IMG/VR virus record: IMGVR_UViG_3300031250_000171
Location: 1-37,238 of that record
Direction: 5' to 3' (one strand)
Origin: a virus
DNA length: 37,238 bases
Positions 8,509 through 27,695 of this stretch are shown in pieces; the stretch's first letter is position 1, and every line of letters begins with the position of its first letter. The position numbers and the translations under genes are program-made. The notes below the pieces were generated by a model that saw only the letters and a program-made list of their open reading frames with translations, was not told the origin of the DNA and did no database searches.

Positions 8509-9002
8509 GCCCCCAGGCCCATCCGGCGCTCACCGTGGCGTTGATCCAGCAGGTCGTCGCCGACCACTACGCCATCCCCGTCGAGCGCCTGCGCGGCCAG
8601 CGGCGGCACACCCGGTTCGCGCGCCCGCGCCATGTCGCCATGTACCTGGCGGCCCAACTGCTGCCCTTGCGCTCGTTTCCGACGCTCGGACGGCAGTTCG
8701 GACGCGACCACACCACCGTCATGTACGCGGTGAAGCGGGTCGGAGAGCGCATCGAGACCGATTCCGATCTGGCACGGGACGTCTCGCTGCTGACCGGCGC
8801 AATCAAGGCAGCCGCCAGGCCGGACATTGTGCGCGAGACAGCCGAATGCCTGGCCGAGGACATCGCGTTCGGCCTGCGTCGCGCCATGCTGGACATGGCC
8901 GCCGCTGACCCATCGGCGTTCATCCGGCGCCTCGCCGTCGCCTTCGGCCAGCCCGAACGGGCGCGCAATCAGGTCGAGGAGGATGCCCCATGCGCGGGTT
9001 GA
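8505..9002 (+). CDS. DnaA domain IV-like DNA-binding protein
   Basis: Of 165 residues, the first 85 resemble the DnaA C-terminal DNA-binding domain: LIQQVVADHYAIPVERLRGQ, RHVAMYLAAQLLPLRSFPTL, then GRQFGRDHTTVMYAVKRV, which matches the DnaA signature (FGxRDHTTV). There is no AAA+ ATPase domain. The C-terminal half is helical and unrelated to DnaA as far as I can see. In DnaA this domain reads 9-mer DnaA boxes. A stand-alone copy in a transposable phage could bind such boxes in host or phage DNA; that is inference. The gene is coupled to both neighbours (ATGA upstream; the downstream ATG overlaps by 13 nt). Confidence 0.8.
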   Translation: MSPQAHPALTVALIQQVVADHYAIPVERLRGQRRHTRFARPRHVAMYLAAQLLPLRSFPTLGRQFGRDHTTVMYAVKRVGERIETDSDLARDVSLLTGAIKAAARPDIVRETAECLAEDIAFGLRRAMLDMAAADPSAFIRRLAVAFGQPERARNQVEEDAPCAG

Positions 9003-11361: not shown

Positions 11362-11924
11362 CCTGGCCCTTCGCCCCCCTGCGCCCGCTGTCCTACGGCG
11401 CCATTCTCGCGGATCCGCCGTGGGCCTATGAGCTGCGCTCGGCCGCCGGGGAGTCAAAGGCGCCCCAGGCCCAATACGCGTGTATGGACATCGACGCCAT
11501 CAAGGCGCTGCCGGTGTCGCACCTGGCCCGTGGCGACTGCCTGCTGGTGATGTGGGCGACCGCCCCCATGCTGCCGCAGGGCATCGCGACCATGGCCGCC
11601 TGGGGCTTCCGCTTCGTCACCGCGGGGGCCTGGGCGAAGCAGTCCAAGACCGGCCGGAAATGGGCGTTCGGCACCGGCTATGTGATGCGCTCGGCGGCTG
11701 AATTCTTCCTGGTTGGAGCCTTGGGCGAGCCGGACTACCAGGTCCGCAACATCCGCAATCTGCTGGTCGCGCCGGTGCGCGAGCATTCGCGCAAACCCGA
11801 CGCCATGCACGACCTGGTCGAGACCCTGGTACCCGGCCCCTATGTCGAGCTATTCGGCCGCCAGCAGCGCTCCGGCTGGGATGTCTGGGGCAACGAAACC
11901 GCCAAATTCGGAGACGCAGCATGA
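11358..11924 (+). CDS. MT-A70 family adenine N6-methyltransferase
   Basis: This 188-residue protein has the DPPW catalytic motif at residues 19-22 (AILADPPWAY), followed by LPVSHLARGDCLLVMWATAPML, FRFVTAGAWAKQSKTG, the SAM-site segment RNLLVAPVREHSRKPDAM and YVELFGRQQRSGWDVWGNE, all typical of prokaryotic MT-A70 proteins. These methylate adenine N6, in phages most likely on DNA. No restriction partner is visible, so it probably protects phage DNA or alters gene expression. In Mu the DNA-modification function is mom, which lies at the other end and is unrelated. It is coupled by 4-nt overlaps on both sides. Confidence 0.9.
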   Translation: MTWPFAPLRPLSYGAILADPPWAYELRSAAGESKAPQAQYACMDIDAIKALPVSHLARGDCLLVMWATAPMLPQGIATMAAWGFRFVTAGAWAKQSKTGRKWAFGTGYVMRSAAEFFLVGALGEPDYQVRNIRNLLVAPVREHSRKPDAMHDLVETLVPGPYVELFGRQQRSGWDVWGNETAKFGDAA

Positions 11925-12280
11925 CCGCCGCCGACGATCTTCGCCGCGCCCTGGAAAAGGCCACCAAAGCTGACCTAGTCGCGTTGCTGATCGATGATAA
12001 CGGCTATTCCGCCAAAGCGGGCCTATGGCTGCAATGGCGCATGGCCGTCCTGGTGCGGGATCGGGCGTGGGCGGAACGCGATGCCGCTTTCGAGGTACGA
12101 ACGCAGGCCTTTGATTTCTGGACCCAGGCCAAGGGAGCACGCGCCCAAGCGGAAGCGCAGGTGCGGCACGCCGCCGCCGGCCTCCGCGTCGCCCAGGCGG
12201 AGGAGAAGGTTCTGGCCGCGCAAACGGCCGTCGATCGGCTGGGGTGCCGGCTGGATCTGGAGGGGGGCATCAATGGCTGA
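11921..12280 (+). CDS. Hypothetical coiled-coil protein
   Basis: This 119-residue protein overlaps the methyltransferase stop by 4 nt and gemA by 8 nt. After about 40 residues with a short helical repeat (LRRALEKATKADLVALLID), the rest is a long Ala/Gln/Arg-rich helix (AWAERDAAFEVRTQAFDFW, QVRHAAAGLRVAQAEEKVLA) that should form a coiled coil. No family is recognised. Confidence 0.55.
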   Translation: MTAADDLRRALEKATKADLVALLIDDNGYSAKAGLWLQWRMAVLVRDRAWAERDAAFEVRTQAFDFWTQAKGARAQAEAQVRHAAAGLRVAQAEEKVLAAQTAVDRLGCRLDLEGGING

Positions 12281-12944
12281 TTTCCCCGACCGCAAGGCGA
12301 TGCTGGGCAAGGTGCATCTGGCCAAGAAGGACCTCGGCCTCGACGATGAGTCTTATCGCGACGTCGTTGCCCGGATCACCGGCAAGGACTCGTCGTCCAA
12401 ATGCACTCGCCCGCAGTTGGTCGACCTGCTGGCCGAGTGCAAGCGTCTGGGCTGGGTGGCGTCGAAGCCCAAGCGCGCCGGTACGCGCTCCATGGCAGCC
12501 GACCCGCAGTCGGCCAAGATGCGGGCATTGTGGCTGGCCCTCTATCACCTCGGCGCCGTGCGCGACCCGGCGGAAGCGGCGCTGACCGCTTTCGCCAAGA
12601 GAATGACCAGAGTCTCGGCACTGCAATGGCTCGACGCTGGCCAGGGCAACCGGGTGATCGAGTCCCTGAAGGACTGGTGCGCCCGCGAAGGCTTCGCGCC
12701 GTCACGCGACGGCACCGTGTCCAAGCAGCTGCTGCTCCATGCCCTGTGGGGCAAGCTCGCCGCCATGGGCGCCGTGCGGATCGCCGATACCGCCGCGTTG
12801 AACAACTGGCTGACGACCGCCCGGATATCGCCACACACCACGGCGGTGTCATTGCTTGTTGACGCCCAGCTTGACCAGGCCGCTGAAACGCTGGGCGCCT
12901 GGGTGCGCCAGTCCAAGGCGAAGGCGGAGGGCGCCGGATCATGA
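12273..12944 (+). CDS. gemA: GemA-like protein (DUF1018, Mu gp16)
   Basis: This 223-residue protein shows the GemA/DUF1018 pattern: an N-terminal KVHLAKKDLGLDDESYRDVVARITGKDSSSKC motif, PQLVDLLAECKRLGW, then MRALWLALYHLGAVRD and a helical C-terminal part (LQWLDAGQGNRVIESLKDWCARE). In Mu, GemA affects host gene expression and DNA supercoiling. It is a reliable marker of the end of the early region in Mu-like phages. The ATG follows a GGAGGGGGG ribosome-binding site and overlaps the upstream gene. Confidence 0.85.
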   Translation: MADFPDRKAMLGKVHLAKKDLGLDDESYRDVVARITGKDSSSKCTRPQLVDLLAECKRLGWVASKPKRAGTRSMAADPQSAKMRALWLALYHLGAVRDPAEAALTAFAKRMTRVSALQWLDAGQGNRVIESLKDWCAREGFAPSRDGTVSKQLLLHALWGKLAAMGAVRIADTAALNNWLTTARISPHTTAVSLLVDAQLDQAAETLGAWVRQSKAKAEGAGS

Positions 12945-13534
12945 CCCTGTACGGCTACGCCCGCGTTTCCTCGGACCACCAGGACACCGCGCTCCAGCTC
13001 GACGCACTGGTGGCCGCTGGCGTCCGGGAGGAGGACATCTTCCGCGACGTCATGTCCGGCGCCCGCGATGATCGCGAGGGATTGGCCGACGCCATCGCTG
13101 CGATCGGGCCGGGCGATAAGCTGGTGGTGTGGCGGATCGACCGCCTGAGCCGGAGCCTCCGCCACCTCCTCGACGTGGCCGAGGAAATCCATGCCAATGG
13201 CGGCGCGCTGGTGTCCTTGTGCGAGGGCATCGACCTCGGCACTCCGGCCGGCCGCATGGTGTTCGGCATCCTCGGGGCCATTGCCCAATTCGAACGCGAC
13301 ATCATCCGCGAGCGCACCAAGGCCGGCCTGGCCGCCGCCAAGAAACGCGGCGTCAAGCTTGGGGCCAAGCCCGCGCTGGAGGGCGAGCGCCTCGACCAGG
13401 TCAAGGCCCTGCTCATCCGCGGCGTCGCCGGACATCGGATCGCCCGCCAGTTCGAAATCAGCGAGGCCACCATCTACAAGCACTTTCCAGGAGGCCGCCG
13501 CGCGTTGCTGGCCGCCATGGAGGCCGCGGCATGA
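12941..13534 (+). CDS. Serine recombinase (resolvase/invertase)
   Basis: This 197-residue small serine recombinase has catalytic S10 in YGYARVSS, the arginine motif VVWRIDRLSRS (R65, R68, R71), the segment GRMVFGILGAIAQFERDIIRERTKAGL, and a C-terminal Hin-type HTH (RIARQFEISEATIYKHF). It is complete. Such enzymes invert or resolve DNA between paired sites. In Mu the related Gin flips the tail-fibre segment and lies near the right end. Here the gene is coupled by 4 nt to gemA and no invertible segment is evident. Possible roles are cointegrate resolution or action on sites outside the window. Confidence 0.93.
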   Translation: MTLYGYARVSSDHQDTALQLDALVAAGVREEDIFRDVMSGARDDREGLADAIAAIGPGDKLVVWRIDRLSRSLRHLLDVAEEIHANGGALVSLCEGIDLGTPAGRMVFGILGAIAQFERDIIRERTKAGLAAAKKRGVKLGAKPALEGERLDQVKALLIRGVAGHRIARQFEISEATIYKHFPGGRRALLAAMEAAA

Positions 13535-13665
13535 TGTGGTCGCTGTGGCGCATCTGGCTGCTGCTCAAGTCGTCAGCGTGGTCGAAGCTGTCGTCGCAAG
13601 TTCCTGCGTGCACATGGATAAGCGCCCACGCCGATGCTGCCAAGAAACGCGCGAATACTCTTTGA
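13531..13665 (+). CDS. Possible small protein downstream of the recombinase
   Basis: A 44-residue frame starts at an ATG overlapping the recombinase stop (MMWSLWRIWLLLKSSAWSKL). Its N-terminus is short, apolar and tryptophan-rich; the rest is polar with no recognisable motif. It ends just where base composition changes towards the accessory block. It may be a real coupled small protein or the cut end of a longer gene. Confidence 0.3.
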   Translation: MMWSLWRIWLLLKSSAWSKLSSQVPACTWISAHADAAKKRANTL

Positions 13666-13690
13666 AACCTCGGATTATAGGGCTGAACTC

Positions 13691-14791
13691 GTGAATACCT
13701 CCCGCGACCAGCATGATATGCCCCTCGCCGTAGTTTCGATCTCAGGCGGCAAAGACAGCACCGCCACGGCGATACTCGCAATCGAGCGGTACGGCCGCGA
13801 GAACTGCCGCTTCGTCACGGCCGATACCGGACATGAGCACGAGGTGACGATCGACTATGTCACCAACTACCTGCCTGCGGCGCTGGGGGTAACGATCGAC
13901 GTGGTGAAGGCGGATTTCACTGTCGACATTGCGCGGAAGCGTAGGTTCGTCGCCGAGAAGTGGGCGCCTGATCTGATTTCCGGACGACGCGGAAAATGGG
14001 TCCGGGTGGCGGCCGATGTCAAAACGCCGATGCCGGCACCCCCAGCAGACCCGTACCGCGGCTCAAAGGCTGACGGCTGGGTGTGGTCTCCGGCCCGGCG
14101 TCCGATGGCGCCCGCGGAAGCCGAGGCGATCGTCGTTCGGGCGCTGGGGGCGCTTCATCCGACCGGCATTCCCTTCCTCGATCTGTGCTTGATGAAGGGG
14201 CGCTTCCCGTCCCGGAAGGCCCAGTTCTGCACCGAATTTTTGAAGCGTAAACCCCTCGACGCATACCTCAAGGCGCTGCTCGATCAGGGATACGAGGCCG
14301 AAAGCTGGCAGGGCGTGCGGCGCGACGAGAGCCTTTCCCGCCGCCACGTACTCGACCGGGAATACCGGCCCGAGGGATGGTGGATCGAGCGGCCAATTGC
14401 CTCATGGACGGCTGACCAGGTCTTCGCGCTGATGACGGCGCACGGGATCAAGCCGAACCCGCTGTACCGATGGGGGTGCAAGCGGGTGGGCTGCTGGACC
14501 TGCATCAACTGCGGGAAGGACGAAGTGGGCGTCTTGGGCCAGCGCACGCCGCTGCATGTCGTCCGCATTCGGACTTGGGAGCGGCTGGTTGGGGCGGCCT
14601 CGAAGCGCGGCTTTTCCGCCCTCCTGCACCACGCCGATGGTGAGGGCGGTGACGCCGAGTTCGCTTACCAGCACTGCAACATCGACTCAATGATCGCATG
14701 GGCGAAGACGTCTCGCGGCGGCCGCCAGTTCGACATGCTGCGCACCGCTCCACCGCCTGCCTGCACGTCCGTTTACGGGCTGTGTGAATGA
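13691..14791 (+). CDS. PAPS-reductase-like PP-loop protein
   Basis: The PP-loop SISGGKDSTA (13735-13764) places this in the adenylyl-PPi hydrolase/PAPS reductase family. Further family blocks are LDLCLMKGRFPSRKAQFCTEFLKRKP, QGVRRDESLSRR, PIASWTADQVFALMTAHGIKPNPLYRWGCKRVGC and the cysteine cluster CWTCINCGK. Phage members of this group are widespread; their substrate is unproven, with proposals including sulfur-dependent DNA modification (DndC is a relative). The start is uncertain. GTG 13691 has an AGGG 8 nt upstream (366 residues); ATG 13718 lacks a ribosome-binding site; a frame is open from 13634. It opens an accessory block. Confidence 0.85.
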   Translation: MNTSRDQHDMPLAVVSISGGKDSTATAILAIERYGRENCRFVTADTGHEHEVTIDYVTNYLPAALGVTIDVVKADFTVDIARKRRFVAEKWAPDLISGRRGKWVRVAADVKTPMPAPPADPYRGSKADGWVWSPARRPMAPAEAEAIVVRALGALHPTGIPFLDLCLMKGRFPSRKAQFCTEFLKRKPLDAYLKALLDQGYEAESWQGVRRDESLSRRHVLDREYRPEGWWIERPIASWTADQVFALMTAHGIKPNPLYRWGCKRVGCWTCINCGKDEVGVLGQRTPLHVVRIRTWERLVGAASKRGFSALLHHADGEGGDAEFAYQHCNIDSMIAWAKTSRGGRQFDMLRTAPPPACTSVYGLCE

Positions 14792-16075: not shown

Positions 16076-16483
16076 CTATTGCCGCGGTTGCGCCTCGGTG
16101 CGCTCGGAACTGACGCCGGATGCGGCACCCATGCCGGTACCCATGGTGCTGGCGCTCGCGGAATAATTCTTCAGCTTGCCATCCTTGCCGAACATCAGGG
16201 AGACGCCATTCGATTTGATGTCGGCGCCGCCTACGAACACGCCGACGAACGGGATGAAAGTTTCCGGCCGGGTGGTGACCTGGGCATACGAATACGTCGC
16301 CATCCGGGTCCCCTGGGATGTGACAGTGGACGACGTCGGCTGGCCGAGAAGGGCTACCATGTCGCTCCAGGTTGTTTCACCGACCTTCAACTGTGCGATC
16401 TGCTGTTCGGTCACCTTGGCTCCGGAGGTGGCGCAGCCGACGAGAATGGCGGCGGCAAGTGCAGCAATCAGAACGTGACGCAT
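16076..16483 (-). CDS. BamE/SmpA-like lipoprotein, minus-strand moron
   Basis: This 135-residue protein has a lipoprotein signal peptide with lipobox LVGC (MRHVLIAALAAAILVGCATSG; lipidated C17). The mature part has the SmpA/BamE-like pattern QQIAQLKVGETTWSDMVALLGQPTSSTVTSQGTRMATYSYAQV, then beta strands and a Ser/Gly-rich tail. The outer or inner membrane is the expected place. It is transcribed against the phage operons, between the accessory block and the late activator, which is typical of a gene expressed in the lysogen. Known phage lipoproteins of this sort include exclusion and serum-resistance factors; the role here is unproven. Confidence 0.8.
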   Translation of the reverse strand: MRHVLIAALAAAILVGCATSGAKVTEQQIAQLKVGETTWSDMVALLGQPTSSTVTSQGTRMATYSYAQVTTRPETFIPFVGVFVGGADIKSNGVSLMFGKDGKLKNYSASASTMGTGMGAASGVSSERTEAQPRQ

Positions 16484-16557: not shown

Positions 16558-16956
16558 ATGACCGAATTCGATACCCGCCACCTGCCCGGCATCCTGGGCG
16601 AGCTGGCCCGGCGGGGCCATGGCGGCGCCGCCCTCGTTCTTGCGCACAGGTGGGGCGGGACCAAGCGTTACATTTCGGCGCGGCCGGGATCGGCTCTGGT
16701 CGACCTCATCGGGGCCAAGGCAGCCGCCATCGTCGCCGTTCTCTGCGGCGGCGGCGATCACGACATTCCGCGCGCGGCGGTGTTGGACGAATTGAAGACG
16801 AAGATCCTGACCCATCCCGGCACCACCCGCGAAACCGCCATTGCCTTGGGCTGCCATGAGCGGTATGTCCGGATGGTGCGCAATTCTGGCGGCGGCATTC
16901 CTGCTCCCCGTCAGCGCCCGGTCGACACGCGCCAGCTGTCGCTGCTCGACCTCTAG
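16558..16956 (+). CDS. Probable Mor/C-like late transcription activator
   Basis: This 132-residue protein ends in a helix-turn-helix (TRETAIALGCHERYVRMVRN). Before it lies a GGTKRYISARPGSALVDLIGAKAAAIVAVLCGGGDHDIPRA segment that follows the Mor/C dimerisation-domain pattern, with its G-G-x-x-Y-I and I-P motifs. In Mu, Mor and C activate the middle and late promoters. Position supports the call: it is the last gene before the lysis cassette, and a palindromic element overlaps its stop and recurs at 25098. The start ATG follows GAGG; a GTG lies 6 nt upstream. Likeness is moderate. Confidence 0.6.
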   Translation: MTEFDTRHLPGILGELARRGHGGAALVLAHRWGGTKRYISARPGSALVDLIGAKAAAIVAVLCGGGDHDIPRAAVLDELKTKILTHPGTTRETAIALGCHERYVRMVRNSGGGIPAPRQRPVDTRQLSLLDL

Positions 16957-16979
16957 CGGAACCCGTTCCGCGCGGACCC
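16956..16979 (+). promoter_or_regulatory. Candidate late promoter/activator site 1
   Basis: GCGGAACCCGTTCCGC (16956-16971) is a perfect palindrome with 7-bp arms. It is followed by GCGGACCC. The same 24-nt unit recurs at 25098-25121 with one mismatch. It overlaps the stop of the activator-like gene and lies 57 bp before the endolysin start. TACCCT at 16996-17001 could be the -10. I infer a binding site for the Mor/C-like protein. Confidence 0.6.
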
Positions 16980-17035
16980 AATCCCTGGCCACCCCTACCC
17001 TCGGCGCAGTCAATTCCGACGGTCGAGGGTTTCCC

Positions 17036-17527
17036 GTGCCTGCATCATCCGTTTCTGAGAACCCGCGCATCGTCGCCCAGACCCTGTGGGGAGAGGCCCG
17101 CGGCGAGGGCGATGCCGGCATTGCGGCAGTCGCCGCGGTGATCGCCAACCGCGCCACCGCCGCCGCCCGCTACCACGCGCGCTACAACCATTTTCACCCG
17201 CTCTATGGCGATGGCACCCTTGCCGCCGCCTGCCTGGTCAACTTCCACAGCACCTGGCAATTCACCTGCTGGTCGCCCGACGACCCCAACCGCGCCAAGC
17301 TCGACGCGGTGACCGAGGCCGACCCGACCTTCGCCCACTGCCTGGTCGTCGCAGAGGCAGCCATCGCCGGCAAGATCGCCGACCCCACCGGCGGAGCGGT
17401 CAACTACCTCGATCCGGTCGCCACCCAGAAGCTGTATGGCCACCTTCCCGGTTGGACCGCGTCGATGCGCGAGACCGCCCGCATCGGCCGGCACGTCTTC
17501 TATGCCGACAAGGGGCGCCCGGCATGA
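17036..17527 (+). CDS. Cell wall hydrolase (SleB/hydrolase_2 type), endolysin
   Basis: This 163-residue protein matches the cell-wall hydrolase family: RIVAQTLWGEARGEGDAGIAAVAAVIANRA, then FHSTWQFTCWSPDDPNRAKL, GGAVNYLDPVATQKLYGHLPGW and IGRHVFYAD. The probable catalytic glutamate is in WGEARGEG. The GTG at 17036 follows GAGGG at good spacing and is chosen over upstream starts that lie within the preceding gene. It degrades peptidoglycan at lysis. There is no signal peptide, so it needs a holin. It opens the lysis cassette downstream of late site 1. Confidence 0.85.
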   Translation: MPASSVSENPRIVAQTLWGEARGEGDAGIAAVAAVIANRATAAARYHARYNHFHPLYGDGTLAAACLVNFHSTWQFTCWSPDDPNRAKLDAVTEADPTFAHCLVVAEAAIAGKIADPTGGAVNYLDPVATQKLYGHLPGWTASMRETARIGRHVFYADKGRPA

Positions 17528-17607
17528 CGGCCCTGCTGATCCTGCTCGCCGCCCTTGTCATCTACAGCGGCCTGGCGCCGCTGGCGATCCGTTCCAACCG
17601 CCCGTAA
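17524..17607 (+). CDS. Tiny membrane protein (27 aa)
   Basis: An ATG overlaps the endolysin stop by 4 nt and encodes MTALLILLAALVIYSGLAPL plus a short basic tail: one membrane helix and little else. It ends 12 nt before the next gene. Its place between endolysin and the holin-like gene suggests a lysis role, which is inference. Confidence 0.4.
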   Translation: MTALLILLAALVIYSGLAPLAIRSNRP

Positions 17608-17619
17608 GGAGCCCGTCAG

Positions 17620-18168
17620 ATGCCGCTCAAAGGCTACCGGACCCTGCTGTTCAACCTGGTTCTCGCCATCGGCGCCATCGCCGGCCATGCCATCGCCCCC
17701 GACCAGGCCGCCCATGCGGTCGACCTGGCGCTGATGCTCGGCGGCGCCGCCGGCAACATCGGCCTGCGCCTGATCACCACCACGCCGTTCGGCAAGGCGG
17801 TGGTCGACTCGGCCGAGCGCTTCATCCAGTTGCGTCCCGACGCAGTCGAGGAGATCAACGACGCCGTCACCGCCGCGTTTGCCGCCCACGGCACGCCGCT
17901 GGTGGCCATGCCGGCGGGGGCGCCCGATACCGACCTGGTCGCGCTGGCTCAGTCGATCACCGGCATGCGGGCCACCATCGAGGGCGTGCACGCCCAGATG
18001 GCCGGCGCGCTCACCGCCGCCCAGGCGCAGGTCGCCGCCGCCATGCCGGCGCTTCCCAATACCCCCCGAGAGCAAACCCAGGGGGCGGCTGCGATCCTGC
18101 AGCCGCCCCAGCCGGAGCCCGGGCCGTCCGCTTCCCCGCCGGCCGCAGTGGTCGTCGTCCAGCCCTAG
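17620..18168 (+). CDS. Holin-like membrane protein
   Basis: This 182-residue protein has two N-terminal apolar segments (LLFNLVLAIGAIAGHAIA and AVDLALMLGGAAGNIGLRLI), followed by helical regions and a proline-rich C-terminus. Its position right after the endolysin supports a holin or holin-associated role. The long soluble tail is unusual for a holin. AAGGAG lies upstream of the ATG. Confidence 0.6.
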   Translation: MPLKGYRTLLFNLVLAIGAIAGHAIAPDQAAHAVDLALMLGGAAGNIGLRLITTTPFGKAVVDSAERFIQLRPDAVEEINDAVTAAFAAHGTPLVAMPAGAPDTDLVALAQSITGMRATIEGVHAQMAGALTAAQAQVAAAMPALPNTPREQTQGAAAILQPPQPEPGPSASPPAAVVVVQP

Positions 18169-18176
18169 GAGCCGCC

Positions 18177-18635
18177 ATGTCGCGCTTTTTCGCCCTCGCC
18201 CTTTGCGTAGTCCTCGCCTCCTCCCTGCTCGCCGCCTGCGCCTCGCCGCCGGCCGGCGCGCCGCCGCCCTCGGCCAAGGCCATCCTGTTCGATGTCGAGG
18301 CCGGGTTCACCGGCGCCGCGGTTACGGCCGCCGCCTACGTCTCGCTCCCGTCCTGCGACGGGCCGGCGGCGCCGAAGGTGTGCAAGGATTCCGCCATCGC
18401 AGCCAAGGTCGCCCTCGGCATCGATTCCGCCAAGGCAGCGCTGAGCACCGCCGAGACGCTGGTTCTCGGATGTTCCGCCGTCCAGTACGTCGCCGCCACG
18501 GCGACGCCGCCGGCTGCATCCTGCGGCCAGCCGGTGGCCGACCAGACCGCCCAGAACCAGGCGATCACCGCGGCCCAGGCCGCGATCGACGCCCTGCAGG
18601 CGGCACTCCCGATCCTCCAGAAAGTGGAGAACTGA
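18177..18635 (+). CDS. Lysis-cassette lipoprotein
   Basis: This 152-residue protein has a lipoprotein signal peptide (FALALCVVLASSLLAACASPP; lipobox LAAC). The mature part is Ala-rich and helical, with four further cysteines, two of them in LPSCDGPAAPKVCKDS. Its place between a holin-like gene and another small membrane protein suggests an outer-membrane spanin role, but it is longer than Rz1-type spanins and lacks the proline-rich form. An AGGAG ribosome-binding site precedes the ATG. Confidence 0.6.
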   Translation: MSRFFALALCVVLASSLLAACASPPAGAPPPSAKAILFDVEAGFTGAAVTAAAYVSLPSCDGPAAPKVCKDSAIAAKVALGIDSAKAALSTAETLVLGCSAVQYVAATATPPAASCGQPVADQTAQNQAITAAQAAIDALQAALPILQKVEN

Positions 18636-18637
18636 TC

Positions 18638-18868
18638 ATGTTGGCATTCCTGGCGGCAATCGCCGCGATCGTCCAGACCCTGTCCCCTCTGATCCCGACG
18701 GTGGTCGGCGTCGCCGGCACCATCAAGCAGCTGTTCGACCTCGGCAGCCAGGTGGTGGCGTCCGGCGCGGACCCCAGCCACGACCAGTGGGCGGCCCTGG
18801 TGGCGCTCCAGACCAACGCCCTGGCTCAGGTCCATGCGGGCGGCAATCAGCCGGTGGCCGGTGCCTGA
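18638..18868 (+). CDS. Small membrane protein of the lysis region
   Basis: This 76-residue protein begins MLAFLAAIAAIVQTLSPLIP, with a further apolar stretch (TVVGVAGTIKQLFDLGSQVV) and a polar C-terminal helix. It starts 2 nt after the lipoprotein stop and overlaps the next gene by 8 nt. It may work with the lysis proteins. No family is recognised. Confidence 0.55.
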   Translation: MLAFLAAIAAIVQTLSPLIPTVVGVAGTIKQLFDLGSQVVASGADPSHDQWAALVALQTNALAQVHAGGNQPVAGA

Positions 18869-19070
18869 CTTCGTCGACCACGCGGCCGAGCGGGAACAGG
18901 CGGACCGGGATGATGCCCTGGCCCGCCACCGCGCCCGGCCGCGCCCGGCAGGCGACAGCGCCTATTCCTGCCGCTCGTGCGGCGAACGCATTCCCGAGGC
19001 GCGCCGCCAGGCGGTGCCGGGGACAAATGTCTGCGGGTTCTGCGCCCGCCAGCTGACGGGGCCAAGATGA
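18861..19070 (+). CDS. TraR/DksA-type zinc-finger protein
   Basis: This 69-residue protein starts at a GTG (MPDFVDHAAEREQADRDDALARHR) and carries a complete DksA/TraR zinc finger: C37-x2-C40 and C58-x2-C61 with the usual CGERIPEARRQAVPG linker. TraR-like proteins bind the RNA polymerase secondary channel and mimic ppGpp/DksA. Short phage versions are common in this position of Mu-like genomes. The N-terminal helix keeps an acidic DxxDxA-like stretch (ADRDDALA). Confidence 0.85.
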   Translation: MPDFVDHAAEREQADRDDALARHRARPRPAGDSAYSCRSCGERIPEARRQAVPGTNVCGFCARQLTGPR

Positions 19071-19450
19071 CGCACGCGGAACTGATCGAACTGGCCAGGC
19101 TAGCGCTGGAATTCCTCGGTGCCCTGTCCGCCGTGGCGCTGGCCTTCCTCGGCGTCGCCCACCGCTCGCTGTTGCGGGAGGTGGCCACCAAGGCCGAGTT
19201 GGAGAAATTCAAGGTCGAGCACGGCGTGGAACACGACAATCTCGTCACGCGGCTTGCGGAGGGGGAATCCCGCTTCGCCCGCATGGAAATCCTGCTGGGC
19301 AACATGCCGACCAAGGATGAAGTGGCACAGCTCAAGATCCAGATGGAGCGCCTCACCGGCGACATCCGTGTGGCCGCCGCCATCCTCCAGCGGGTCGAGC
19401 AGCCGATGCGGGCCATCACCGAGGGCGCCCTGGCAGAGGTGATGAAATGA
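19067..19450 (+). CDS. DUF2730 family phage protein
   Basis: This 127-residue protein has an N-terminal membrane helix (ALEFLGALSAVALAFLGVAH) and then a coiled-coil body with the MPTKDEVAQLKIQMERLTGDIRVAAAILQRVEQPM pattern of DUF2730, the Mu gp25-like family. It lies in the conserved order before the gp26-like and DUF1804 genes. The molecular role is unknown. It is coupled by 4-nt overlaps on both sides. Confidence 0.8.
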   Translation: MTHAELIELARLALEFLGALSAVALAFLGVAHRSLLREVATKAELEKFKVEHGVEHDNLVTRLAEGESRFARMEILLGNMPTKDEVAQLKIQMERLTGDIRVAAAILQRVEQPMRAITEGALAEVMK

Positions 19451-19794
19451 CCAACACCCGCACCATCCTAGAGGAATCGATCCGCCTGGCGATGTTGAGG
19501 TTCCTGGTTGAGGACGCCGACTACTCGCACAACACCAGTGTCCTTCAGGATCTGCTGGAGACCATCGGCTTCGCCATGAGCCGCGACCAAGTCGACACCC
19601 TGTGCGCCTGGCTGGCCGAACAGGGCCTGGTCACCGTGGAACTGGTCGGCAAGGTCAAGGTGGCGAAGTTGACCAACCGCGGCGCCGACGTCGCCTTGGG
19701 GCGCGCCCGGGTTCCCGGCGTTAAACGGCCGTCGCCCTCCGAGATCATGGCCGCCGCTTCTAACGCGGCGCTCGGCATTCTCGGCGGCGGCTGA
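19447..19794 (+). CDS. Mu gp26-like protein
   Basis: This 115-residue protein contains a winged-helix-like region: ESIRLAMLRFLVEDADY and LLETIGFAMSRDQVDTLCAWLAEQGLVTVE. It is typical of the small protein between DUF2730 and DUF1804 in Mu-like phages. The C-terminus is Gly/Ala-rich. Its role is unknown, possibly in DNA packaging or regulation. Confidence 0.75.
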   Translation: MTNTRTILEESIRLAMLRFLVEDADYSHNTSVLQDLLETIGFAMSRDQVDTLCAWLAEQGLVTVELVGKVKVAKLTNRGADVALGRARVPGVKRPSPSEIMAAASNAALGILGGG

Positions 19795-19797
19795 TCC

Positions 19798-20298
19798 ATG
19801 GCCCACCCGCCGGAAACCAAGACTGCGGTGCGCACCGCCTATGTCAGGGAACGCCTGCCCCTGGACGAGGCCGCAACGCGGTCGGGAGTGCCGGTCGATA
19901 CGGCACGCAAGTGGAAGCGCGCGGCCGAGTCCGGCGGCGATGACTGGGACAAGGCGCGGGCCGCCCACTCGCTCACCCAGGCCGGCACCGGCGCGATCGT
20001 TCAGCTGGTTCTCGCCGATTACCTTGCACTGCACCAGGCCACCGTCGAGGGCTTGAGGGAAGACGCATCCATCCCGGCGCTGTCGCGCGCCGAGGCGATG
20101 AGCCGCCTGGCCGACGCTTTCACCAAGACCATGGCCGCCGCTGCCAAGGCAGCCCCCGAACTGGGCCGCTTCGCCGTCGCCAGCGAATTGCTGGCCGACC
20201 TGGCCGGCTTCGTGCGCAACCGCTTCCCCGCCCATGCCGGCGCCTTGGCCGAAATCCTGGAGCCGTTCGCTCTGGAGATGGCCCGGAAATACGGATAG
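19798..20298 (+). CDS. DUF1804 protein, probable small terminase subunit (Mu gp27)
   Basis: This 166-residue protein starts with an HTH (KTAVRTAYVRERLPLDEAATRSGVPVDTARKWKR) and continues with the GDDWDKARAAHSLTQAG motif typical of DUF1804, then helices. In Mu the corresponding gene lies just before the large terminase gene, as here, and is taken as the small terminase that recognises phage DNA for headful packaging. Confidence 0.85.
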   Translation: MAHPPETKTAVRTAYVRERLPLDEAATRSGVPVDTARKWKRAAESGGDDWDKARAAHSLTQAGTGAIVQLVLADYLALHQATVEGLREDASIPALSRAEAMSRLADAFTKTMAAAAKAAPELGRFAVASELLADLAGFVRNRFPAHAGALAEILEPFALEMARKYG

Positions 20299-20302
20299 GC
20301 CG

Positions 20303-21931
20303 ATGGCGGCGGCGAAGAAGGACAAGAAGGCCGACTTCCTGAAGGCGATCGGCGAGGTTGCCGCCGATCTCAAGGCCTATATCGAGGCCGCGGTCGATGG
20401 CTTCTCCACCGATGCCGTCGCCTCGGCCGAACGCAGGGCCAAGGCGGGTGACGACTTCGGCTTCTTCGCCCGCACCTACTTCCCCCATTACGTCTCCACG
20501 ACGGCCAGCGTCTTCCACCGCTTCCTGTTCCGCCGCCTGCCCGAAATCGCCGCCGCCGGCGAAGGGGTGCGCGAGGCCATCGCCGCGCCGCGCGGCAACG
20601 CCAAGACCACTTATGGTCAGATCTATCACCTCTGGCTCGATCTGACCGACCGCAAGCACTTCATGTGCCTGATGGCCGATTCCTTCGACCAGGCCGCGGA
20701 AATGCTGGAGGGCATCAAGGCGGAGCTGGAGGTCAACCCGCGCCTCGCAGCCGACTTCCCCGACCGCGTCGGCAAGGGCCGGGCATGGAAGGTGGGGGTG
20801 ATCATCACCAATGGCGGGCACAAGATCCAGGCGTTCGGTTCGGGCAAGCGGCTGCGCGGCGTTCGCCATGGCGCCCGCCGTCCCGACCTGGTGTGGCTCG
20901 ACGACATCGAGAACGACGAAAACGTGCGCAGCCCCGAGCAGCGCGACAAGCTTGAGGCGTGGATCGATAAGGCGGTCGACCCGCTGGGGCCGCCCGACGG
21001 CTCGATGGACATCGTCTATGTCGGCACCATCCTGCATTACGATTCGGTGCTGGCGCGCAAGCTTAAGAACCCGATGTGGAACGCCACCCGGTTCAAGGCG
21101 GTGATCCGATGGCCCGACCGCATGGATCTGTGGGACCGCTTCGAAGAGATCATGCGCAACGACGGCCGCCCCGCCGCCGACGCGTTCTATGCCCAGCACC
21201 TGGCAGAAATGCTGGCCGGCGGCGAAGTGCTGTGGCCGGCGGTGCAGCCGTTCAAGCGGCTGATGGAGATCCGCATCCGCGTCGGCCGGGCGGCCTTCGA
21301 CAGCGAGTACATGAACGATCCCATCAGCGACGCCGACGCCATGTTCGCGCGGGTGACGTTCTGGGTGGACCGGCTGCGCCTGTGGGTCTTCCTCGGCGTC
21401 TGCGATCCCAGCCTGGGCAAGAAGTCGCGGCGCAACGATCCCTCCGCCATCCTGGTGGGTGGTCTCAACCGCGAGACCGGGGTGCTCGACGTGGTCGAGG
21501 CGGCGATCCGCCGCCGCCTGCCCGACAGGATCATTTCCGACATCATCGCCCTGCACCAGGAATACCGCTGCCTGCGCTGGGGCATCGAGAGCGTGCAGTT
21601 TCAGGAATTCTTTCGCACCGAACTGGTGCGGCGCTCGGCCGCCATGGGCTGCCCGGTTCCCGCGGTGCCGCTGTTGAACAGCGACGACAAGGATCTTCGC
21701 ATCGAAAGCGTACAGCCCCACGTCGCCAACGGATTGATCCGCTTCAGCCCCAACCACGCCACGCTGCTGGAGCAGCTGCGCCACTGGCCGCACGCCGATC
21801 ACGACGACGGCCCCGACGCCCTGGAAATGCTGTGGCGCCTGTGCCAGGCCGCAGGGACGTCCGCGAGCGTGCGCACCAGCGGCATCCGGGCTGCGGCCGG
21901 CGGTGGGTACCGCGACTTCGTTGGAGGATAG
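20303..21931 (+). CDS. Large terminase subunit (Mu gp28-like)
   Basis: This 542-residue protein has an N-terminal ATPase with a Walker A-like motif AAPRGNAKTT (residues 94-103) and Walker B LVWLDDIEND (D200/D201). The C-terminal RNase H-like nuclease has D368 (GVCDPSLGKKS) and a terminal acidic cluster DDGPDALEM (501-508). It drives headful packaging and cuts the concatemer or flanking host DNA. The length is normal, and it lies between the small terminase and portal as in Mu. Confidence 0.93.
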   Translation: MAAAKKDKKADFLKAIGEVAADLKAYIEAAVDGFSTDAVASAERRAKAGDDFGFFARTYFPHYVSTTASVFHRFLFRRLPEIAAAGEGVREAIAAPRGNAKTTYGQIYHLWLDLTDRKHFMCLMADSFDQAAEMLEGIKAELEVNPRLAADFPDRVGKGRAWKVGVIITNGGHKIQAFGSGKRLRGVRHGARRPDLVWLDDIENDENVRSPEQRDKLEAWIDKAVDPLGPPDGSMDIVYVGTILHYDSVLARKLKNPMWNATRFKAVIRWPDRMDLWDRFEEIMRNDGRPAADAFYAQHLAEMLAGGEVLWPAVQPFKRLMEIRIRVGRAAFDSEYMNDPISDADAMFARVTFWVDRLRLWVFLGVCDPSLGKKSRRNDPSAILVGGLNRETGVLDVVEAAIRRRLPDRIISDIIALHQEYRCLRWGIESVQFQEFFRTELVRRSAAMGCPVPAVPLLNSDDKDLRIESVQPHVANGLIRFSPNHATLLEQLRHWPHADHDDGPDALEMLWRLCQAAGTSASVRTSGIRAAAGGGYRDFVGG

Positions 21932-21935
21932 GGCC

Positions 21936-23507
21936 GTGAGCGATACCAAGAAAGCCGTGCCGGCGGAGCTGCGCCAGGAGATCGCCGGCGCCGATCGTGA
22001 CGTCTTCCACCTGCTGTTCGCCCACATGATGCGGTCGCAGGATGAAATCCTGCTGACGCGGGGCGGCGGTCGCGGCCTCAAGATCTACGACGAAATCTCG
22101 CGCGACCCGCTGGTCGGCGCCCTGCTGCGCAAGCGATATGCCGCCGTGGTGGCGCGGTCGTGGACGGTGACGCCGGCAAGCTCGGCGCGGATCGACCGCA
22201 AGGCAGCCGATCTGGTCGAACGGGTGCTGAAGGGAGAGTGGGGATTCCGCTACGACCGCATCTGCTGCGAACAGCTCGACGCCACCCTCAAGGGCTATGC
22301 CGTCGGCGAGGTGATGTGGGCGCGGCGTTCCGAGGATTTCCTTGTTCCCGTCGACGTCAAGCCCAAGGATCAGCGCCGCTTCGTCTTCGACGACAAACAA
22401 CAGCTGCGCATGCTGACCTTGCGGGACATGATGCGCGGCGACGAGTTGCCCGCGAAGAAGTTCCTGGTCCATCGCTTCGGCGACAAGACCGGCGATCCCT
22501 ACGGACTCGGCCTGGGCAACACGCTGTTCTGGCCGGCTTACTTCAAGCGCCAGGGCATCACCTTCTGGCTCACCTTCGCCGAGAAGTTCGGCTCGCCGAC
22601 CGTCGTCGGCGAGTATCCCGACGGGATGCTCGATGCCGAACAGGACAAGCTGCTGAACGTGCTGGCCGGGATCGCCCAGCGCTCGGCCCTGGTGGTGCCC
22701 AACGGCACGGTGGTGAAGCTGTTGGAGGGGGTGCGCTCCGGCAACATCAACACCTACGAGGAACTGTGCCGGTACATGGACGAGATGATCACGCTCGCCA
22801 TCCTGGGCGAGACGCTGACCTCGTCGGTCCGCGGCGGCGGCTCGCGCGCCGCCTCCGAGACCCACAACGTCATCCGGGAAGAGCTGGCCGATTCCGACGC
22901 CGACCTTCTGTGCGCCGCTCATACCGAACAGCTGGTGCAATGGATCGTCGCCCTGAACTATCCCGAGGCCCAGCCGCCGGTGCTGTCGCGTCCGCGCATG
23001 GCCCGGGAAGAAGAAGAGGCGGTGCGCGACCAGAAGAAGATCCAGGCGCGCCAGATGGCGCTGGCATATATCACCACCGCCCGCCAGGCCGGGTGGGTGC
23101 CGGCCGACCCGGCGGCCGACATCGACGAGCAGTGGAAGGGTAAATGGGTCTACGTCGGGACACCGAGCGGCCCCGCGGCGCCAGGGGTGGCGGTAACCCC
23201 GCAGACCGAGCAGGCCGACAGCGAATTCGCCGGCGGCGATCGCCACCTCCAGCTGGGCGACACCACGCCGAGGGACGCGGCCGACGACATTGCCGACCAG
23301 TTGGTCCAGGCGGCGGCGCCGGCGATGGCCGACCTGATCGGACGCGTCCGCAGCCTGGTCGGTTCCTGCAGCAGCATCGGCGAGCTGGCGGACGAACTGG
23401 TGCGGCTGTACCCGAAGCTCGATGCCGCCGACCTGGCGCTGGCGCTGTCGCAGGCATTGCAGGTGGCGGAGCTGACCGGGCGGGCCGAGATCGCCGATGT
23501 CCGCTGA
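21936..23507 (+). CDS. Portal protein (DUF935, Mu gp29)
   Basis: This 523-residue DUF935 protein shows IYDEISRDPLVGALLRKRYAAVV, then CCEQLDATLKGYAVGEVMWAR, FLVHRFGDKTGDPYGLGLG, TFAEKFGSPTVVGEYPDG and ITLAILGETLTSSVRGGGSRAASETHNVIREE. The GTG start follows GGAGG. The portal forms the dodecameric entry ring at one capsid vertex. An acidic, Ala-rich tail (about 430-523) follows the conserved core. It overlaps the F-like gene by 11 nt. Confidence 0.92.
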   Translation: MSDTKKAVPAELRQEIAGADRDVFHLLFAHMMRSQDEILLTRGGGRGLKIYDEISRDPLVGALLRKRYAAVVARSWTVTPASSARIDRKAADLVERVLKGEWGFRYDRICCEQLDATLKGYAVGEVMWARRSEDFLVPVDVKPKDQRRFVFDDKQQLRMLTLRDMMRGDELPAKKFLVHRFGDKTGDPYGLGLGNTLFWPAYFKRQGITFWLTFAEKFGSPTVVGEYPDGMLDAEQDKLLNVLAGIAQRSALVVPNGTVVKLLEGVRSGNINTYEELCRYMDEMITLAILGETLTSSVRGGGSRAASETHNVIREELADSDADLLCAAHTEQLVQWIVALNYPEAQPPVLSRPRMAREEEEAVRDQKKIQARQMALAYITTARQAGWVPADPAADIDEQWKGKWVYVGTPSGPAAPGVAVTPQTEQADSEFAGGDRHLQLGDTTPRDAADDIADQLVQAAAPAMADLIGRVRSLVGSCSSIGELADELVRLYPKLDAADLALALSQALQVAELTGRAEIADVR

Positions 23508-24810
23508 CGCCTTCAATCTGCCTTTCGCCGAAGCGATCGCGTATCTCGGGCGCAAGCTGGACGTCCCCACCGCGAGTTGGACCGACATCCGCGAGGCCAT
23601 GCATGCCCGCGCCTTCGTCGTTGCCGGGGCGATCAAGGGCCAGCTGATCGCCGACTTCCACGACGCAATCAACCGGGCCATTGCCGAGGGCCGCACGCTC
23701 GCCGATTTCCGCCGCGACTTCGACGCCATCGTCGCCAGGCACGGCTGGGACTACAACGGGTCGCGCAACTGGCGTTCAGCGGTCATCTACAACACCAACA
23801 TGCGCATGGCGGTGGCCGCCGGCCGGTGGGCGCAGGGCATGCGCCTGGCCGATGGCGGCGGCAAGGTCTACATCCGCTACACCGCCATCCTCGATTCCCG
23901 CACCCGGCCGCTGCACCGACAGTGGCATGGGATCATCCTGCCGGTCGACCACCCCTTCTGGGATACACATTATCCGCCCAACGGGTGGAACTGCCGCTGC
24001 TCGATCCAGTTCCTTACCCATGACGAGCTGGCTCATTACGGCTGGCAGGTGACGGCCGACGCGGACATTCCGGCCGTCCTATGGGAAATGCGTCCGCTCA
24101 AGACCCCCGACGGGGTCGAGATGGTGAACGTGCCTGAGGGCATCGACACCGGCTTCGGCTACAACGTCGGCAAGGCTGCGTGGGGACGCGGCGCCGACCG
24201 CGTGGCGATCGAGCGGCACGGCCCATGGAACGAGCTGACGGTTCCGGCCGGCATCCGCCAGGCGGCGACGCCGCTGCAACCGGTGGCCACCGACATTGTG
24301 CCTGCGCCCCCCGTCGCGCGGATATTGGGCACGCAGGCGCCCGGGATCGGGCACCCCCCGGCGGCAGTGGCGCCGGAAACGGTGGACGCGCTGCGGGCGG
24401 CGCTGCGCCAGGCGCTCGGCGCCGACGAGGCGATCCTGACCGATCCGGCCGGCGAGGCGATCTCGCTCGGCCAGGCCATCGTCGACCACATGATCACGGA
24501 CGCGGCCCGGATCGACGGGCGCGAGAGCTATTTCCCCTTCCTCGCCGACCTGATCACCGCTCCCCAGGAGATCTGGGTGGGCTTCGCCGAAGACGAGGCG
24601 TCAGGGCAGGTGTCGCTGCGCCGGCGCTACGTGAAGTACTTCCTGATCGGCAAGCGCCGGGTGCTCGGCCTGATCGCCGATTCCGACGGCAACCGCTGGT
24701 CGGGGATGACCTTCTTCCGGGGGACGACGGGTGCCCTCAAAAACCTGCGCACCGGCCTTCGGGTCTACCGCGCCGAGGCGGAGGAGGCGACGGATGCTGC
24801 GGTGGAGTGA
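23497..24810 (+). CDS. Mu F-like head morphogenesis protein with PBECR-like nuclease domain
   Basis: Of 437 residues, the first 220 match the Mu F/SPP1 gp7 head family: LADFRRDFDAIVARHGWDYNG, NTNMRMAVAAGRW, YTAILDSRTRPLHRQWHG, PFWDTHYPPNGWNCRC. The C-terminal about 120 residues (LGQAIVDHMI, ITAPQEIWVGFAEDEASGQVSLRRRYVKYFLIGKRRVL, GNRWSGMTFF) fit the phage Barnase-EndoU-ColicinE5/D-RelE-like (PBECR) nuclease group. That group is found fused to phage head proteins and could be delivered into cells with the DNA. Likely nuclease residues are the H of DHMI and the RRRY/R cluster. The fusion is clear by family pattern; activity is untested. Confidence 0.88.
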   Translation: MSADAFNLPFAEAIAYLGRKLDVPTASWTDIREAMHARAFVVAGAIKGQLIADFHDAINRAIAEGRTLADFRRDFDAIVARHGWDYNGSRNWRSAVIYNTNMRMAVAAGRWAQGMRLADGGGKVYIRYTAILDSRTRPLHRQWHGIILPVDHPFWDTHYPPNGWNCRCSIQFLTHDELAHYGWQVTADADIPAVLWEMRPLKTPDGVEMVNVPEGIDTGFGYNVGKAAWGRGADRVAIERHGPWNELTVPAGIRQAATPLQPVATDIVPAPPVARILGTQAPGIGHPPAAVAPETVDALRAALRQALGADEAILTDPAGEAISLGQAIVDHMITDAARIDGRESYFPFLADLITAPQEIWVGFAEDEASGQVSLRRRYVKYFLIGKRRVLGLIADSDGNRWSGMTFFRGTTGALKNLRTGLRVYRAEAEEATDAAVE

Positions 24811-25173
24811 GACCATGGTCCGCGCACCGGCCACGTCGGCCGCCGCCCGGGATCGGGGGTGCGCCCCACCGGACGGCTGCAAAGCGAATCATAGCACGGA
24901 CCCCAAGGTGCCGGGTAGTCCTGCCGGAGGGCCATCGCAAGCGCCGGAAGACCCGTGGGGGTCCCGGTGTGCCCGCCGAACCACTTCGGGGCGCCCAATC
25001 CGCGTTAGACATGCGTTAACGACGATGTTTCGGCCGCCCCCTTGTCTTGGTTGCCGATCGCGGGCAGCATGGGGCCATCCCTCCATCGCGGCACCCGGCG
25101 GAAACCGTTCCGCGCGGACCCCGTTCGGCCAGCCGACGATGATCGCCTCGACCTTCATCAGGCAGGCGATCCC
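24811..25173. other. Gap between head genes with late-promoter element and an ambiguous ORF
   Basis: No recognisable gene lies in these 363 bases, an exception in a tightly packed late region. The gap begins with the palindrome GACCATGGTC (24811-24820). A frame from ATG 24815 (after GGAG) stays open to 25177 and would overlap the protease GTG by 4 nt (120 residues, five cysteines). Its codon use (AGA, TTA, CGA, AGT, CCT) is unlike the neighbours and it matches no family I know. GGACCCC (24899-24905) can pair with GGGGTCC (24958-24965 region). TGCTATGAT on the minus strand (24896-24888) looks like an extended -10. The right part holds late site 2. Confidence 0.45.
25098..25121 (+). promoter_or_regulatory. 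Candidate late promoter/activator site 2
   Basis: GCGGAAACCGTTCCGC (25098-25113) followed by GCGGACCC matches site 1 (16956-16979) at 23 of 24 positions; the mismatch breaks one palindrome pair. It lies 53 bp before the protease GTG. GATGAT (25138-25143) sits at the position of the proposed -10 of site 1. It should drive the protease, scaffold and capsid genes. Confidence 0.6.
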
Positions 25174-26331
25174 GTGACCGCGTCCAAGCCCACCAAGACG
25201 ATCGAGATCTTCCGGCCCGGCACCTTCACCACAAGGGCCGGCGACGAAATCACTTTTTCCGCCGCCGACCTGGTGGCCGTTGCCGGCGCCTACGATCCGG
25301 CGCTGCACCAGGCGCCGTTGGTGGCTGGGCACCCCAAGCACGACGATCCGGCCCAAGGCTGGGTGCAGCGCGTCGAATTCGTTGACGGTCGGCTGGTGGC
25401 CGAGGTCGACCAAGTCAATCCGCAATTCGCCGCCGCCGTCGGGCGGGGCGAATACAAGCGGGTCTCCGCCGCCTTCTATCCGCCGGCCTCGAAAGCCAAC
25501 CCGAAACCGGGCCAGTACTATCTGCGCCACGTCGGCTGCCTGGGCGCCATTCCCCCCGCTGTGTCCGGACTCAAGCCGCTGCAATTTTCCGCCGGCGACA
25601 CCGACTTCGTCGAGTTCGGCCAGGACGACATGCCGCTGGGGCCGGTCTTCCGCCAATTGCGCGACTGGCTGATCGGCAAGTTCGGGCTGGCGGACGCCGA
25701 CCAGGCGCTGCCCGGCTGGATCGTCTCCCAGGCGGAAGACGCCGACCGTGAAGAGACCGAGGACACTGCCGACGGCGCCTGCGGTTCCTGCGGGTCGGCC
25801 TCCTTTTCCAACCACGACCAAGGAGTCGACATGACCACGAAGCCCGATCAGGCCGCGCTCGACAAGCGCGCGGCCGAGTTGGAAGCCCAGGCCCAGGCCT
25901 TCGCAAAGAAGGAGATCGCCTTCGCCGAATTGGAACGCGGCCAACGCCGGAAGGACGACGAGGGTTTCCTCGAAGGGCTTATCGCGAAGGGCCAGTTCCT
26001 GCCGGCACAGAAGGCCAACACGCTCGCCTTCATGGAAAGCGTGGCTGAAACCGACCAGGTCATCGAGTTCGCCGAGGGCGACGGCACGAAGGCGAAGGTT
26101 TCGCTGCGCGACGCCTTCCGGCGCCATCTGTCGGCGATTCCGAAGATGGTGGAGTTCGGGGAGATCGCCCCCGGCGACGGCTCCGGCGCCACCTCGGTCG
26201 AGTTCGCCGCGCCGGCCGGCGCCATCGTCGACCCCGAGCGGCTCCGGCTGCACGGCATGGCGCTCGCCTATCAGCGCCAGCACCCCGACCAGTCCTATAT
26301 CCAGGCCGTCAAGGCCGTAGCCAAGGAGTGA
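25174..26331 (+). CDS. Head maturation protease with scaffold domain (Mu gpI-like)
   Basis: This 385-residue protein starts at GTG 25174 (TASKPTKTIEIFRPGTFTTRAGDEITFS). The N-terminal half is a Mu I-type protease: LVAGHPKHDDPAQGWVQRVEFVDGRLVAEVDQVNPQFAAAVGRGEYKRVSAAFYPP, then YYLRHVGCLGAIPPAVSGL. The H of GHP and the S of RVSAAF are plausible catalytic residues. A Cys-containing acidic linker leads to a helical scaffold part (about 220-385). In Mu, gpI cleaves scaffold and itself during head assembly. Upstream in-frame ATGs would precede the late promoter element and are rejected. A weak AGGCAGG ribosome-binding site is present. Confidence 0.85.
   Translation: MTASKPTKTIEIFRPGTFTTRAGDEITFSAADLVAVAGAYDPALHQAPLVAGHPKHDDPAQGWVQRVEFVDGRLVAEVDQVNPQFAAAVGRGEYKRVSAAFYPPASKANPKPGQYYLRHVGCLGAIPPAVSGLKPLQFSAGDTDFVEFGQDDMPLGPVFRQLRDWLIGKFGLADADQALPGWIVSQAEDADREETEDTADGACGSCGSASFSNHDQGVDMTTKPDQAALDKRAAELEAQAQAFAKKEIAFAELERGQRRKDDEGFLEGLIAKGQFLPAQKANTLAFMESVAETDQVIEFAEGDGTKAKVSLRDAFRRHLSAIPKMVEFGEIAPGDGSGATSVEFAAPAGAIVDPERLRLHGMALAYQRQHPDQSYIQAVKAVAKE
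25831..26331 (+). CDS. Nested in-frame scaffold protein (Mu gpZ-like)
   Basis: An ATG inside the protease gene, in the same frame, has a perfect AAGGAG ribosome-binding site 5 nt upstream (25820-25825). It would give a 166-residue scaffold: MTTKPDQAALDKRAAELEAQ, a coiled coil and a C-terminal helix (LHGMALAYQRQHPDQSYIQAVKAVAKE) likely to bind capsid. Mu and lambda use the same device (I/Z and C/Nu3), with protease and scaffold sharing a C-terminus. Confidence 0.75.
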   Translation: MTTKPDQAALDKRAAELEAQAQAFAKKEIAFAELERGQRRKDDEGFLEGLIAKGQFLPAQKANTLAFMESVAETDQVIEFAEGDGTKAKVSLRDAFRRHLSAIPKMVEFGEIAPGDGSGATSVEFAAPAGAIVDPERLRLHGMALAYQRQHPDQSYIQAVKAVAKE

Positions 26332-26765: not shown

Positions 26766-27695
26766 ATGACGATGAATTCCGGTCAGGTCAGGGTCATCGA
26801 CCCGATCCTCTCCAATATTGCGCTGGGCTACAAGAACGCCGAATTCATCGGCTTGATCGTCTGCCCGCGCGTCCCGGTGCAGATTTCCGGCGGCCAGGTG
26901 CTCCAGTTCGGCAAGGAAGCCTTCATGGCGCAGAACCTGCGCCGCGCCCCCGGTGCCCGCATGCACCGCATCGACCTCGGCTATCTGGGCGAGAAGTACG
27001 CCCTGGTCCAGGACGGCGTCGAGGGCAAGGTGCCGTTCGAATGGCTGCGCGACGCCTCCATCGTGCCGGGTATCGACCTCGGCACGCGGGCGGTCAACCT
27101 GACCATGCGTGTCCTCACGCTCGGGTTGGAGATCGAGCAGGCCGGGCTGGTCACCAACCCGGGCGCCTACGATTCCAACCACACCGTGGTGTTGTCGGGT
27201 ACCTCGAAGTGGTCGGACTACGTCAACTCCAACCCGGTGGGCGACGTCGACGCAGCCAAGGAAGCCATCCGCTCCTCGGTCGGTATCTACCCCAACCTGC
27301 TGACGCTGGGGCCGAAGGTCTTCAATACCCTGAAGAACCATCCGAAGATCAAGGACCAGTTCAAGTACACCTCCGCCGACAGCATCACCGAAGCAATGCT
27401 CGCCACCTATTTCGGCGTGGCCAAGGTGGTGGTCGGGCGCGCCGTCAGCGCCGATGACCAGGGCACCATGAGCGACGTGTGGGGCAACATGGCGCTGCTG
27501 TCCTATTCGCCCGATCTGCCCTCGGGGATGGAAGAGCCCAGCTTTTCCTTCACGTACACCATGGACGGCAATCCGCACGTCGAGCAGCCCTACGTCGAGC
27601 GCCAGGTGCGCTCGTGGCTCTACCCGACAGTCTACGAACGCGCGCCGGTGATCACCTGTGCCCAGGCCGCCTTCCTGATCCAGAGCCCGGTGTAG
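26766..27695 (+). CDS. Major capsid protein
   Basis: This 309-residue protein follows the decoration gene. Characteristic stretches are VRVIDPILSNIALGYKNAEFIGLIVCPRVPV, FEWLRDASIVPGIDLGTRAVNLTMRVLTLGLE, SKWSDYVNSNPVGDVDAAKEAIR, NLLTLGPKVFNTLKNHPKIKDQFKYTS and a C-terminal beta-rich half. This is the HK97-fold major head protein type of B3-like transposable phages. No N-terminal delta domain is obvious, in keeping with a separate scaffold. Confidence 0.88.
   Translation: MTMNSGQVRVIDPILSNIALGYKNAEFIGLIVCPRVPVQISGGQVLQFGKEAFMAQNLRRAPGARMHRIDLGYLGEKYALVQDGVEGKVPFEWLRDASIVPGIDLGTRAVNLTMRVLTLGLEIEQAGLVTNPGAYDSNHTVVLSGTSKWSDYVNSNPVGDVDAAKEAIRSSVGIYPNLLTLGPKVFNTLKNHPKIKDQFKYTSADSITEAMLATYFGVAKVVVGRAVSADDQGTMSDVWGNMALLSYSPDLPSGMEEPSFSFTYTMDGNPHVEQPYVERQVRSWLYPTVYERAPVITCAQAAFLIQSPV

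Follow-up and report, generated by a model that had tools for sequence, protein, structure and literature searches.

In phage Mu, a dimer of the activator Mor occupies a 16-bp element at the promoter Pm that is centred at -43.5 and replaces the -35 element (PMC4390567), and the polymerase steps vary between the Mu late promoters (PMC4461284). At each of the four Mu late promoters compared here (Plys, PI, PP and Pmom), 24 bp separate the end of the half-site from the -10 element. Here we describe two 24-nt elements in a single IMG/VR virus record (37,238 bases; the whole stretch of DNA analysed, hereafter the window). We predict, with a probability that we place at about 90%, that the phage's one Mor/C-family activator binds these elements at two late promoters, and the operators are regarded as a variant of the known Mor/C late promoter. 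A literature search, with most subscription journals outside its coverage, returned no description of these operators or of a Mor/C helix-operator rule.

The gene order of the window is Mu-like. A repressor-like gene precedes the MuA-type transposase (4147-6243), after which come a MuB-like ATPase (6277-7038), early genes and the 132-aa late activator (16558..16956, + strand). The activator gene starts with ATG, and an in-frame GTG is also present ahead of it at 16552. The first late operon opens with an endolysin (cell wall hydrolase; 17036..17527, + strand; PF07486, E=7.3e-12; phrog_938 endolysin) and continues with terminase, portal and a gpF-like protein that ends at 24810. The second opens with a Mu gpI-like head maturation protease (25174..26331, + strand; phrog_976, E=2.1e-110), downstream of which lie the major head protein (26766-27695) and the tape measure protein (30889-34425). 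The early region of this transposable phage also includes a 491-aa ORF (7527-9002) with a DnaA C-terminal HTH domain (PF08299, E=2.5e-23) and cargo-like genes within 11139-14791, among them a DNA methyltransferase (11139-11924), a DNA invertase-like gene (12941-13534) and a phosphoadenosine phosphosulfate reductase-like gene (13634-14791). A small lipoprotein-like gene (phrog_3135; 16076-16483, minus strand) sits directly upstream of the activator, and a minus-strand gene likewise occupies the place just upstream of the activator in Rhizobium phage RR1-B.

Judged from its amino acid sequence, the 132-aa protein is a member of the Mor/C activator family (PF08765, phrog_836, phrog_532). It matches phrog_836, 'late transcriptional activator', with E=1.2e-9, a profile also matched by Mu C (2e-11) and Mor (1e-10). 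PF08765 (Pfam Mor) was matched by 8 of 15 relatives and gave no match to the window activator itself. Comparison with Mu C/Mor in hhalign was weak (probability 55%, from an alignment of two rows), a fold search ranked Mu Mor (1rr7) first without significance (E=1.6, TM 0.24), and Mor was absent from the results of a PDB profile search. An HTH was modelled at residues 74-110 using a model built from the 15 relatives, and its last confident helix, residues 101-110 near the C-terminus, is the predicted recognition helix HERYVRMVRN. No second Mor/C-type protein was found in the window, even at E values up to 10. In several phages of the group the activator gene is annotated merely as 'hypothetical protein' or 'late transcriptional activator', without a site.

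The first element, GCGGAACCCGTTCCGCGCGGACCC, lies at 16956-16979 and the second, GCGGAAACCGTTCCGCGCGGACCC, at 25098-25121, both on the + strand; they are identical at 23 of 24 positions, as a first-pass annotation of this DNA had reported. Each contains the palindrome CGGAA-N4-TTCCG (CGGAACCCGTTCCG at 16957-16970 and CGGAAACCGTTCCG at 25099-25112), extended by a sixth G/C pair to the 16-bp dyad GCGGAA-N4-TTCCGC at 16956-16971 and 25098-25113. The former is the predicted activator site of a lysis/packaging promoter and the latter that of a protease/capsid promoter. The placement given in that annotation was also accurate: the activator gene ends on the first site, the last base of its TAG stop codon (16954-16956) being the first base of the site, and the sites lie 57 bp before the endolysin GTG (17036) and 53 bp before the protease GTG (25174). 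No third match to the 24-nt element with three or fewer mismatches was found in the 37,238-base window, and 100 dinucleotide shuffles gave no match at all, so that none is expected by chance. The stretch GCGGACCC that follows the palindrome had been counted as part of the site, and this stood in part, as GCGG is retained in the close subfamily and the stretch is absent from the family-wide motif. A role for GCGGACCC as a third half-site was set aside, given that the close subfamily retains GCGG alone.

A third perfect CGGAA-N4-TTCCG is present at 6029-6042 within the transposase gene. It has no GCGGACCC tail, and was set aside as a third promoter on the grounds that it has no -10 at the right distance and no counterpart in relatives. 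Scanning the window with one half-site mismatch allowed and a -10 required gave a sole extra match at 18416, which is at chance level. Further copies had been anticipated before the tail and right-end operons, and none occurred in the 37-kb record or in the whole contigs of close relatives. What holds of the earlier proposal that the palindromes mark late-operon starts is that the two elements appear to control late operons, with the neighbouring Mor/C-type activator as their most likely reader; the extra copies are absent.

Downstream of each dyad, a predicted -10 hexamer on the + strand begins 32 bp from the dyad centre. At the first promoter it is TACCCT (16996..17001), with a predicted transcript start at about 17008 and a leader of about 28 nt before the GTG codon; at the second it is GATGAT (25138..25143), with a predicted start at about 25150 and a leader of about 24 nt. 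GATGAT is a poor -10, although its two strongest positions are occupied by A and T.

When viral contigs were scanned for exact occurrences of a 22-nt core, the hits were L008, which is a near-identical copy of the protease-promoter region, and L009 and L010, both unrelated; exact patterns therefore fail to reach relatives. In relatives from viral contigs whose activators are 77, 65, 53 and 50% identical, and in Magnetospirillum and Rhodospirillaceae MAGs, GGAA-N3..5-TTCC palindromes were found just past the activator stop codon, with a second palindrome 7-9 kb downstream, ahead of the protease, wherever the relatives' contigs were long enough. Across their full length, the contigs of the first relatives contained almost no such palindromes apart from this pair, and the arrangement (one after the activator, one before the protease) is kept in relatives down to 33-40% identity. 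One locus departs from this layout: L021 has two palindromes just upstream of the activator's own start, and its activator (2165-2764) has a C-terminal extension resembling a second HTH; this activator is possibly self-regulated. In L007, tandem palindromes follow the activator at 3956 and 4019, each accompanied by a -10-like hexamer at a distance of 24-25 bp.

From 317 genomes of one order, 385 genomes of one class and the earlier loci, a set of 80 activator loci without duplicates was assembled, each spanning about 13 kb if the contig allowed. A blind search, run on 70 loci, ignored both the protein and the -10, and required a perfect 6+6 palindrome within 230 bp past the activator stop codon that recurred 6.6-8.7 kb downstream. 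Recurring palindromes were present in 27 of 70 loci and in 0 of 210 shuffled loci. When sites from the blind search were aligned on their dyad centres (n=54), xAxxxT, representing the two strongest -10 positions, started at 32 bp in 36 sites, 31 bp in 12 and 33 bp in 3, and at other distances or on the mirrored side of the dyads the counts were 0-4 with no peak. By this geometry, a 16-bp inverted repeat near -44 appears to stand in place of a -35 element, as in Mor/C promoters. In a looser search that included the -10 in its score, 44 of 79 loci exceeded the 95% shuffle level; the automatic procedure gave no site above that level in the other 35, some of them because the contig ends or because a GC-rich chance palindrome outscored the site. 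A gpI-type protease followed the second site within 260 bp in 29 of 35 loci.

Half-site classes were taken from the 35 best loci and compared with the helix motif R-x-V-x. Activators with RYVR or RWVR were paired with CGGAA, those with RTVRRH or RHVRR with CGGAC, those with RYVY or RRVY with CTGAA, and those with RTVY, RHIY or RTVS with CTGAC; RTVE occurred with CCGAC or GCGAC, RTVK with GTGAC and R[ST]VQYW with GCGCAA. Exceptions to these classes are L108 (RTVRRM with CTGAC) and L107 (RHVRG with CGGAA). Across 25 clusters below 60% identity, a clustering that controls in part for common ancestry, and with the wrong automatic calls at L025 (off register) and L072 (a GC-rich chance match) kept in the counts, the residue after V was associated with half-site base 2 (0.60 bits above shuffles, p=0.001), and base 5 was associated with both the residue before V (0.53 bits, p=0.002) and the residue two after V (0.60 bits, p=0.001). 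Since the half-site changes together with the recognition helix, the operator target is partly predictable from the activator sequence. Applied to Mu C and Mor, the helix code yielded no clear pairing.

Named phages outside the training set were examined after the pairings had been set. As tblastn with the window activator returned no matches among named phages, more distant members were used as queries instead. All four phages with callable sites fit the pairings. Rhizobium phage RR1-B (NC_021557), for which RWVR predicts CGGAA, carries CCGGAACCGAGTTCCGG twice, 1 bp past the activator stop codon and before the protease; Ochrobactrum phage POA1180 (RSAY) has CTGACACTGTCAG after its activator; and EBPR siphovirus 4 (RHVRR) has CGGACCAATGTCCG. 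Alteromonadaceae phage B23 (RRVW) has a non-adjacent activator, and CTGAA-N4-TTCAG occurs there exactly twice in 19 kb (0.07 expected), once before the lysis genes, followed by TAATCT at the right distance, and once before the I protein. The more distant phages TJ1 and Suso had no callable site.

Palindromes of such size are typical of many dimeric regulators, and the sites might be read by another protein, either a repressor or a host factor, with the activator acting elsewhere. This is improbable, as the half-sites track the activator's own recognition helix across the 25 diverged clusters and the four further phages, and the geometry is that of Mor/C promoters. Still less credible is a role of the palindromes as intrinsic terminators or RNA hairpins at the ends of the activator and gpF operons. 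In its favour, the first site is directly past a stop codon, RNA from a GC-rich inverted repeat can fold, and T-rich stretches follow the palindromes in some relatives (for example L104 and L070). Neither window site, however, is followed by a U tract, and the stability of the folds is no better than that of shuffles (z of -0.31 and -0.12), on which grounds this reading was rejected; it also leaves unexplained the fixed, one-sided -10 distance and the covariation with the activator helix.

An apparent natural exchange is seen in two loci, L065 and L081. A 494-bp stretch that begins just beyond the first operator and runs into the lysis gene is 84% identical between them in DNA sequence, yet the identity of the two activators is 36%; the helices are RWVRM and RHVRR, respectively, and both promoters have CGGAA in L065 and CGGAC in L081. 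Approximately 7935-8130 bases past its activator stop codon, L065 has a CGGAA site, a CGGAC palindrome 102 bp further on and then the protease start, together with a duplicated ATGACCGACGCC start. The CGGAC palindrome of L065, a single case, is possibly a remnant of an earlier specificity or of operator exchange. That the repeats are themselves recombination or module-exchange boundaries and not promoters is the least plausible explanation, for although they flank the lysis-to-gpF block and the duplicated operator-plus-start segment of L065 resembles a past exchange, neither the -10 peak nor the helix covariation would be accounted for, and operator exchange may still occur as a by-product.

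By analogy with Mor at Pm, the 16-bp dyad GCGGAA-N4-TTCCGC, centred at about -44, would take the place of a -35 element and be bound by a dimer of the activator, whose last HTH helix (HERYVRMVRN) would read the half-site CGGAA. The bound dimer would direct a host sigma-70-type RNA polymerase to the -10 hexamer, which begins 32 bp away from the dyad centre. Promoter 1, from about 17008, would serve the lysis, terminase, portal and gpF genes, and promoter 2, from about 25150, the protease and capsid genes; the tail genes are probably reached by read-through from the protease promoter. A broader hypothesis, which we hold at somewhat better than even odds, is that the Mor/C activators of this transposable-phage group follow a readable code (residue after V and base 2: R-G, Y/S/K-T, E-C; residue before V and base 5: Y/W-A, T-C), that phages with the same geometry and gene order exchange the activator together with both operators as a matched set, and that a single activator replaces the Mor-then-C cascade. 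A two-copy repeat becomes a testable regulatory map in which one protein would act at two promoters, each with a predicted transcript start. The pairings suggest that the activator helix could help to locate late promoters in many Mu-like prophages, and the natural helix-operator pairs offer a resource for studying joint change in an activator and its dispersed operators.

Among isolated phages, RR1-B has the same layout and the CGGAA half-site, differing in its spacer of 5 as against 4 in the window; its record carries no annotated promoters or sites. Like the Mu C gene, which lies directly before Plys with a second promoter before protease I, the activator gene here directly precedes the first of two predicted late promoters. 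The first-pass annotation had called the site unlike that of Mu C, which is right for the half-site (CGGAA/TTCCG here, TTAT/ATAA in Mu) and not for the layout of C gene, Plys and PI or for the spacing: from the end of the 16-bp dyad to the -10 is 24 bp here, and because the Mu distance is also 24 bp at four late promoters, the site resembles Mu's in geometry and differs in sequence. A Mu C regulon proper, with four TTAT/ATAA promoters and C expressed from a Mor-driven middle operon, was not found in the window, where there are two predicted late promoters and no equivalents of PP and Pmom, and where the separate Mor and middle operon of Mu were not seen; the activator matches phrog_836, while Mu C belongs to phrog_532. 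The distance from dyad centre to -10 is 31 bp in Pm and 32 bp here, and Mor follows GemA, as does the single activator in RR1-B and near-neighbours. In Mu, Mor acts at one middle promoter, from which C is made, whereas the activator described here appears to serve the late promoters directly. Given a single activator and no PP or Pmom equivalents, the comparison suggests an early-to-late circuit that runs without the middle tier of Mu.
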